Of a stretch of 64,000 nucleotides of DNA, positions 34,701-37,700 are shown in pieces. The DNA comes from Albula goreensis (Eukaryota; Chordata; Actinopteri; Albuliformes; Albulidae). Positions within the stretch are counted from its first letter, which is position 1. Each line of letters opens with the position of its first letter. The notes below the pieces were generated by a model. It saw only the letters and a program-made list of their open reading frames with translations. It made no database searches and was not told where the DNA came from. Position numbers and translations under genes: made by a program. Location: contig CM040753.1 of assembly GCA_022829145.1 (NCBI GenBank), positions 11,167,884-11,231,883 of the forward strand, read 5' to 3'.

Positions 34701-37700
34701 TGTCAAGGGTAAGAAAGAGGGTAAGAGCCATTTCAAAATAATCCAAGACCCTGAATACAAGCGCTTTGGTAGCACTGTGGATATGAACACTGCCCTGGAG
34801 ACTTTCATTCCACACAGGTGAGTCACTCTGCATGGTCGACATTAGAGCCAGTGTCCATGTTATTTATGGTCAGATTTGCTTTTACCAGATTAAAACGTCA
34901 ACTTCATATTCCACGTTAAAGACAAAATTTCTATCTATGCATGGCTTCCTCATCCATCATGGTTTTATATCTGTTTTACAGTAACAGCCCTTCAGCTATT
35001 CAGGACTGTTGCAACTGGCTGCGGAAAAGACTGGAGGAGCTAAATGCTGAGTGCTACAAGCAGATGCATTACCATCAGGAGCAGGTGTGCTACATTTCAC
35101 ATTCTGCCTGCTGTTTGGCCCAATATCCTGAGATTAATTTACTCCTCTAAACCCCCCTCCCAGCATCTGACAAGTTTTTTTTATTGCTACATCTCATCTC
35201 TCCCTCAGGCTGCAAACTGCATTGTGGGAAACCTTGTTTATGAGCGTCTCGCCAACCATGGGCCAAAGTTGGGCCCCATCACCCGGAAAAATCCCATTGT
35301 CACAAGGTGCATACAGTTGGTACCTCTGAACGCTGATATAACACAATACAAGTTCAAGGGACTAAATATACCTTTACTTTCATATTTTGAGTTCATAATT
35401 TACTTCAATGTGAAGATAACTTGGGGTATACTTTAGAATTAATGGAAAAAGTTCAACCCACAAGACCATGTAGGTCAAAATGTTTTTTTCTCTAAAAAAA
35501 ACAGTAGAGCTTTTAAACAACTTGCCGGTACACTGTTTTTTCCACTCGATTTAAAATAGATTGCACTGAATGATGGATTACAGTTTTGGAATATAATCTG
35601 GAAAGAATTCTCTGCTAATAATGAGCAATTTGTTGGTACAAACACTTCTGCACTGAGGGCTACATTCCCTGCAGGTACTTTACCTTCCCCTTTGAGGAGA
35701 AGAGCCTGGACCAGGACCTTCAGCTGCTGCACAAGCCCGACAAAGCCTGCCACTTCCTGGCCCATAATGGCTGGGTGATGGGGGACGACCCTCTGAGGAA
35801 CTTTGCCGAACCAGGTTGCCCCACCGGCTCAGGGCTCTTTCAGTCATCATAGTCAGGGTTTATTATAGACCAGATGTGGCCTACCCTGGTCGTGGAGACC
35901 TATAGGGTGATGTGCTTGTTTTTGTTGCTCAGTTAATCAGTTCATCAGTTAATGCAGTTCATTACACAGTTAACTCACCTCACTTGGTCTTTTCAGTCTG
36001 AACTGAAGCTCTCCAGGACTGGGGTTGGACTAGGGGTGTTTGATGTAAGTGAAAAGGGCCAGTGTGGATACAGGCTTTTCCTCCAGCCTAGCTCTAAATC
36101 ATTTGATCCAGCTAATGCAGGTAATGATTGAAGACCATAATTAGTTAATCAGCTGAGTTGGGTATTTTAGTGCTGGGCTAGAAGATGTCTGAATCTACAC
36201 TGGCCCCTTTCAAATGAAAATGGACAGCACTGATTTACACCATTAGGTGGTGCTGTAAGCAAGATAGAGAACAGATGCCCCACTCATTGCTGCTTTGCTC
36301 CTAATATGATTAAATCTTTCCCCTGGGACTCTGACAGGGTCCAATGTCTACCTCAGGAGGGAGCTAATTTGCTGGGGGGACAGTGTCAAGCTTCGCTATG
36401 GCAACAAACCAGAGGACTGCCCTTACTTGTGGGCCCACATGAGAAAGTACACAGAGCTCACAGCCAAGTATTTCCTCGGAGTACGCCTGGACAACTGCCA
36501 TTCTACCCCTCTCCATGTGGCGGAGGTACACTGTCATACTCCCACATATCCCACACACACTAGCATGACAGCCATTTTTGTACTCTATCTGTTGAATCCC
36601 ATGTATCAGTGTCTACTGGAATGTAATGCATACCTAGTGTCAAGTAAGACCAGCCCCTCTTATGCTACATATCTGTTTTATGTTGTATTCTGTAGGAGAT
36701 GTTAGCTGCGGCCAGAGCAGTCAGACCCAATCTCTATGTCATAGCAGAGCTCTTTACAGGCAGTGAGCTGATTGACAATGTCTTTGTAAACCGCCTGGGG
36801 ATAACCAGTCTTATCAGAGGTACTGGGCAGCTGCAGGCTAGTATGTATTGCTGTGAAGCTTAAGTTGTGGCATGACACTAAATCTTGTCTCTTTGTGTTT
36901 TTGTGTCTTTATTTTATTTTTTATTTTCTTCCTCTTATTCTTTAACCTAACCCTCAATTCCTTACCCTGTTCTCTATTTCTGACCTTCTACAATTGAACA
37001 CCTAATCCTTTCCAATGATTTTTACCCTAACACTCAAATCTCATAATATTTATATACCGTATAATCAATTTGGTTTCTCTTGGCTGATATCTTCTCATGC
37101 TGTTTTGACCTCTTTGTTTCTTCCTTCCTTGTTTTTCCTCCCTTTAAATTGGTTTGTGGAATGACTAATCGCTGGCTATGGTTAACGTTTAATCCCCCCT
37201 CCCCTCCACACTCATCCTGTTTCTTGCTTAGCTTGATTCTCTTGCTGTCCTCGGTGGGTTAACCCTGCACTGTCTGGCCCGTGTTGTGTGCTTGGTGGGC
37301 TGCAGTACTTTCTGGACGTGGCCCGCACAGTCAGGCCTGATCTGTACGTAGTGGCTGAGCTGTTCACTGGAAGTGCGGACCTGGACAATGTCTTTGTGAC
37401 TAGGCTTGGCATATCCTCTCTCATCAGAGGTAGGATGCATGTCAGTTGACTGAATGAAGCTTTCTGGAAAAAGGATTTAAAATTAATGAAAAAAGCCAAA
37501 CTTTTCCTGCTGGAATGGGAGTATACAAAGTGGCATGTAATTCATATACTCTGAAATGAAGGATCAACTATTCTCTCTGGTCTATTAGCTGTACGTGTCC
37601 TTACTGTTTTGTGTAACTGTTAACTTAATTTAACTTCAAGCAGATCCCAATCTGAATGTTGCACAATCGAAAGCATGGCTAAGATTTGTAACCAGGGCTA

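Follow-up and report, generated by a model that had tools for sequence, protein, structure and literature searches.

The window, by which we mean the whole 64,000-nt stretch of Albula goreensis DNA, contains agl, which encodes the glycogen debranching enzyme (GDE), as identified by a full-length match to the human enzyme and by the presence of both transferase catalytic residues. In animal glycogen use, AGL is the sole debranching step, and it is the gene behind glycogen storage disease type III. The spliced model was guided by a human debranching enzyme sequence whose length and compared part of the alignment agree with PDB chain 8zeq_A. It has 33 coding exons per transcript, or 34 when both versions of exon 12 are counted (Table 1). 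The product that carries version 12b has 1,534 residues, aligns from 1 to 1534 with residues 1 to 1532 of the human chain in one stretch (2876 bits), and is identical to the guiding human sequence at 1168 of 1534 positions. This full-length search used the 12b product; for version 12a, a 193-residue fragment scores 364.9 bits in the GDE comparison. By alignment to the fungal chain, the transferase nucleophile Asp (VRLDNCHS) and the acid/base Glu (AELF) are both present.

Table 1. Coordinates of agl and of the features in and around its two versions of exon 12
Feature	Positions	Strand	Description	Basis
agl coding region	28729..47621	+	start to stop codon	spliced model guided by human protein
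Exon 11	36338..36525	+	transferase nucleophile Asp (VRLDNCHS); ends in phase 0	spliced model; Asp by alignment to fungal enzyme
Exon 12a	36696..36819	+	41 codons + 1 nt	spliced model
Intron 12a-12b	36820..37305	+	486 nt; donor GAG/GTACTG, acceptor GGGCTGCAG/TAC, both weak	splice-site scores
AG-free tract	36865..37229	+	365 nt, pyrimidine-rich (71%); candidate site for pyrimidine-tract-binding splicing regulators	AG-free run length
Candidate distant branch-point adenines	36875..36881	+	36875 and 36881 (+56 and +62 from 12a donor)	motif score only
TAG	37229..37231	+	closes the AG-free tract; 74 nt upstream of 12b acceptor	sequence
Candidate ordinary branch-point adenine	37262..37262	+	GGTTAACCC, 43 nt before 12b acceptor	motif score 5.73, shared fourth-highest in intron
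Exon 12b	37306..37429	+	41 codons + 1 nt	spliced model
Exon 13	37717..37880	+	enters in phase 1; in-frame join to 12a or 12b	spliced model

Elsewhere in the gene, the 133-nt intron between exons 15 and 16 is mostly a perfect 40-copy TG repeat (39136-39215) lying 10 nt from the donor, and the donor after exon 10 (35815, CAG/GTTGCC) is the gene's weakest on an approximate matrix. Outside agl, pieces of eukaryotic 18S rRNA lie at 3644-4450 on the forward strand (194.7 bits). Their 5′ end and the part from about 1223 to 1440 of the model fit well, with the middle absent or scrambled, and they are probably an rDNA-derived pseudogene or insertion. An open frame at 54275-54505 on the forward strand has a weak DOMON match (24.6 bits, under the Pfam cut-off of 32.7) and is perhaps an exon of frrs1, the neighbour of AGL in human. 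Another open frame, at 8669-9169 on the reverse strand, matches DUF4371 weakly (23.4 bits; cut-off 32.1) and is likely the remnant of a hAT-type transposon. Two arrays of a nearly identical 90-bp unit, at 13063-13276 and 15834-16045, are about 2.8 kb apart.

We now turn to exon 12. A sequence-only reading of this DNA had described two exons of 124 nt each, entered in phase 0 and left in phase 1, with GT-AG sites and a 486-nt intron between them, and all of this was found as described. Recomputing its count of shared residues gave the same 29 of 41, with 82 of 124 bases in common. Within 36526-37716, a repeat search detected a single family of direct repeats, in which 36710-36822 pairs with 37320-37432 at 71%, and no inverted repeats. 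The duplication is confined to exon 12; the flanking introns have no detectable likeness, and exons 11 and 13 are single-copy. The two adjacent exons are thus arranged as tandem-duplicated exons are, being homologous, of equal length and of the same phase. Incompatibility between U2- and U12-type sites does not separate them, as all four sites are GT-AG in ordinary context, with no AT-AC. With 12a or 12b alone the frame stays open for all 1,534 residues, and including both breaks it, each as the sequence-only reading had stated; the stop then falls at codon 592. A transcript that lacks both versions stops at codon 542. The frame survives only if one of the two is included, so the reading frame itself requires them to be exclusive. 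Exons 12a and 12b are very probably a real mutually exclusive pair, and by using one or the other agl can probably make two enzyme forms.

The exchanged segment lies at the active site. In the transferase barrel, exon 12 encodes the stretch that separates the two catalytic residues, and a little more past it, the Asp being in exon 11 and the Glu in exon 12. The 41 residues comprise the helix that follows the strand of the nucleophile, then the strand bearing the acid/base Glu, and after that a loop and a helix. In Candida glabrata GDE, Asp535 is the nucleophile and Glu564 the proton donor, the D535N and E564Q substitutions abolish transferase activity, and Phe566 and Gly568 are suggested as a possible lining of a mainchain cleft (PMC4837477). 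The segment had been proposed to hold the transferase acid/base Glu, and it does, at the residue equivalent to Glu564 (PMC4837477). In the numbering of the 1,534-residue product, which we use for all 12a/12b comparisons, Glu557, Phe559 and Gly561 correspond to fungal Glu564, Phe566 and Gly568 and are invariant in 12a, 12b and the human and fungal chains. An earlier suggestion that the two forms have altered transferase sites found no support here: the Glu and the equivalents of Phe566 and Gly568 are identical in both. Of the 12 differences, seven do fall in the two places noted before, the beginning of the exon and the residues directly behind the Glu. Those at 540-544 and 563-565 would affect the helix packing and the loop that follows the Glu.

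Family models score the two versions similarly. Placed in otherwise identical 193-residue fragments, 12a, 12b and the human segment score 353.5, 358.4 and 364.4 bits against TIGR01531, and 150.7, 153.5 and 153.5 bits against PF14701. Since the catalytic Glu, Phe and Gly are kept and the models are about equal for both, the 12a and 12b isoforms should both be active debranching enzymes.

The intron between the exons has unusual sequence features, which we scored with approximate tables for splice sites and branch points, ranking them among agl's 33. Among the 33 acceptors, that of 12b comes out weakest and that of 12a is 27th counted from the weakest; the 12a donor is the second weakest of 33, and the 12b donor is average. 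The exon 11 donor and exon 13 acceptor are also weak, so weakness is not special to 12a and 12b. The pyrimidine-rich stretch previously placed at 36,900-37,210 is real and somewhat longer than claimed (Table 1). Its 365-nt AG-free run is the longest in the window on either strand, the next being 206 nt on the forward and 134 nt on the reverse strand, and the next in the gene 116 nt. When the intron was shuffled, a run of this length arose in 2 of 5000 dinucleotide shuffles and in 0 of 5000 mononucleotide shuffles. PTB-type 4-mers occur at 7.0 per 100 nt, the highest density of the 33 introns (next, 6.1). No inverted repeat of at least 12 nt was found within 36526-37716, and none of four stretches folded better than its shuffles (z from 0.77 to 1.59). 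Docking-site pairing between competing RNA structures is not supported at this level.

The best explanation for the locus as a whole, and one that we consider highly probable, is that agl carries a tandem-duplicated, mutually exclusive exon pair, governed by regulated competition and by decay of wrong joins, and yielding two active enzymes. One transcript would take 12a and the other 12b, so that the enzymes would differ solely in the 41-residue piece of the transferase barrel. Exon 12a, with its strong acceptor and weak donor, would compete with the very weak 12b acceptor. Use of the 12b acceptor would in turn depend on the long upstream pyrimidine tract and on proteins bound there, of the PTB, TIA1 or PUF60 type. 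Transcripts with both exons or with neither would be removed by nonsense-mediated decay. What sets the two isoforms apart would be finer traits, for example their stability, their turnover or the way they handle branches; they would not be an active and a dead form.

A different mechanism, known from OGDH and alpha-tropomyosin, would place the 12b branch point about 56-62 nt past the 12a donor, so that joining 12a to 12b is sterically blocked. Several features are consistent with it, including an AG-free tract that starts 45 nt after the donor, the long pyrimidine tract, the weak 12b acceptor, and motifs at +56 and +62 that are the best-scoring within +20 to +80 of the 12a donor (weaker ones lie at +37 to +44). 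Long AG exclusion zones are the hallmark of this mechanism, and the OGDH branch points of fish are nearer the steric limit (PMC7969005). The candidate adenines, however, exceed the quoted steric limit of about 50 nt, whereas in human OGDH the distance is 25-41 nt (PMC7969005). The AG exclusion zone from a near-donor branch point also does not run unbroken to the 12b acceptor, since the TAG intervenes. Lying between the candidate adenines and the acceptor, that TAG should be the first to be chosen, and using it as an acceptor stops the frame at codon 579; in OGDH, no orthologue from fish was found to have a YAG there (PMC7969005). Moreover, an ordinary branch motif lies at 37262, just 43 nt from the acceptor, and higher-scoring motifs occur further down the tract, at 36950 (+131) and 37030 (+211). 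We judge the distant branch point to be unlikely, and because it fits poorly, regulated competition with decay of wrong joins is preferred.

The same stops could be read in another way. If only one exon made working enzyme and the other mainly diverted transcripts to decay, the arrangement would tune the amount of enzyme, and early stops do arise each time both exons are joined, both are skipped, or the TAG is used. Yet the second exon alone restores the full frame and has retained its amino-acid sequence, neither of which a pure poison exon needs, and this makes such an arrangement quite improbable.

How strongly the amino-acid sequence has been kept can be gauged from the substitutions between the copies. 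Base differences fall at 12, 6 and 24 of the 41 first, second and third codon positions, an excess at third positions (24 of 42 differences, p = 0.0013). We obtained dN = 0.27 and dS = 1.85 by NG86, and dN = 0.26 and dS = 1.48 by LWL85. The resulting dN/dS of about 0.14-0.18 is rough, because dS is near saturation, YN00 gave no value and the maximum likelihood dS saturated at 13. In a neutral simulation, one copy drifted freely in 2000 runs per distance, scored on the retention of 29 of 41 residues. At 0.3 substitutions per site, 51 of 2000 runs kept that many; at 0.5 or more, 0 of 2000 did, and a stop had been gained in 1095 of 2000 runs at 0.5. Taken together, the third-position excess, the low dN/dS and the simulation indicate that both copies are held under constraint at the protein level.

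These simulation results also weigh against a relic, in which one exon would be an old duplicate that is open by chance and no longer spliced. The very weak 12b acceptor would suit a relic, as would the four positions at which 12a departs from the residue on which 12b and the human and fungal chains agree. The 12a acceptor is nevertheless good, the 12b donor is average and 12b matches the human segment at 34 of 41 residues, so we regard a relic as very improbable. An assembly artefact, in which exons of two agl paralogues were merged into one locus, is barely credible: agla gene duplicates do occur in some fish (PMC10007964), but the window contains no N, the exon alone is doubled between unrelated introns, and exons 11 and 13 are single.

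Both copies being retained, we asked how old the pair is. Versions 12a and 12b share 29 of 41 residues with each other, and 31 and 34 with the human segment. To the fungal chain, the identities are 27 for 12a, 31 for 12b and 30 for the human segment. In 10,000 bootstraps of the alignment columns, the closest of the three pairs was 12b and human in 7597, 12a and human in 1347 and 12a and 12b in 135, the rest being ties; a four-point test grouped 12a with 12b in 280 of 5000 bootstraps. Because each version is nearer to the human segment than to the other, the duplication looks old, and introns without detectable similarity are what an old duplication would leave. A date before the split of fish and tetrapods is only suggestive, since the comparison has 41 sites and rates may have changed after the duplication. 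Counter to that date, 12a and 12b share Val548 and Arg549, where the human chain has Leu and Gln. Four residues set 12a alone apart from the human and fungal chains, namely Tyr540 (Glu in those chains), Asp543 (Ala), Val555 (Ile) and Ser576 (Thr), and two set 12b alone apart, Asn551 (Asp) and Glu563 (Ala), so 12a is the more changed copy. A fuller account, which we offer tentatively and find somewhat doubtful, is that the pair predates the split of ray-finned fish and tetrapods, that fish kept two debranching enzymes differing in their transferase barrels, under an OGDH-like switch in an intron with a pyrimidine megatract, and that the human lineage lost 12a.

Scans of genome contigs and viral contigs for relatives of the agl pair found no true relative. 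Eight viral stretches fit the pattern and none was confirmed. Six genome-contig loci were rejected as agl relatives, as their match consists of 12 residues of exon 11 only and their translations belong to an unrelated bacterial protein, which we take to be sulfatase-like.

Among known systems, the closest likeness found is to exons 4a and 4b of OGDH, likewise a metabolic enzyme in which a tandem pair alters a small functional segment, the intervening intron is shorter than about 0.5 kb with a long AG-free pyrimidine tract, and the summed exon length is not a multiple of three (PMC7969005). With such a length, double inclusion is unproductive; this holds for 377 (60%) of 629 human clusters of mutually exclusive exons (PMC5740500). 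The intron between 12a and 12b is of the type for which the OGDH study uses the terms long AG exclusion zone and large pyrimidine tract (PMC7969005). Unlike in OGDH, the AG-free zone of agl is broken by a TAG before the acceptor, and the agl segment is part of a catalytic barrel, whereas that of OGDH is a calcium-binding motif (PMC7969005). As in human tandem and mutually exclusive exons, the agl versions are homologous, equal in length and phase, and swapped in the protein (PMC9741552, PMC5740500). Of the 236 annotated human events of tandem duplicated exon substitution, bony fish have an orthologue for more than 90% (PMC9741552), whereas the agl pair lies in a fish-type gene and is absent from the human protein.

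The proteins themselves are alike: agl has the domain order, the transferase Asp and Glu, and the Phe and Gly after the Glu of the Candida glabrata and human enzymes (PMC4837477; PDB 5d06, 8zeq), both of which have a single version of the segment, as against two here. For the human enzyme this agrees with the sequence-only reading, as chain 8zeq_A, at the protein level, has one only. In the main-text passages of PMC9741552 and PMC5740500 that were searched, AGL is mentioned among neither the human events nor the clusters. The main text of a rainbow trout long-read paper does not mention debranching, and a goldfish AGLA 'isoform X1' is named in PMC10007964. Searches of the open PMC literature turned up no description of a mutually exclusive pair in AGL; the pair may be annotated somewhere as an isoform, for instance in Ensembl or RefSeq. 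Mutually exclusive tandem exons are a well-known gene design; judged by the open PMC literature, such a pair in this gene appears to be new.

What makes the pair notable is its place in a central metabolic enzyme, right at the acid/base residue. A second, natural version of this segment that selection has preserved would serve as a ready-made tool for learning which barrel residues tune the transferase, and the gene would exemplify a metabolic enzyme whose regulation works through the choice of an active-site exon. The intron between 12a and 12b offers a further test case for the way in which long pyrimidine tracts free of AG keep splicing exclusive, here with a natural interrupting TAG. If the reading as an ancient pair is true, branch transfer during glycogen mobilisation in fish would be controlled at the level of splicing, perhaps in connection with muscle type or anoxia.
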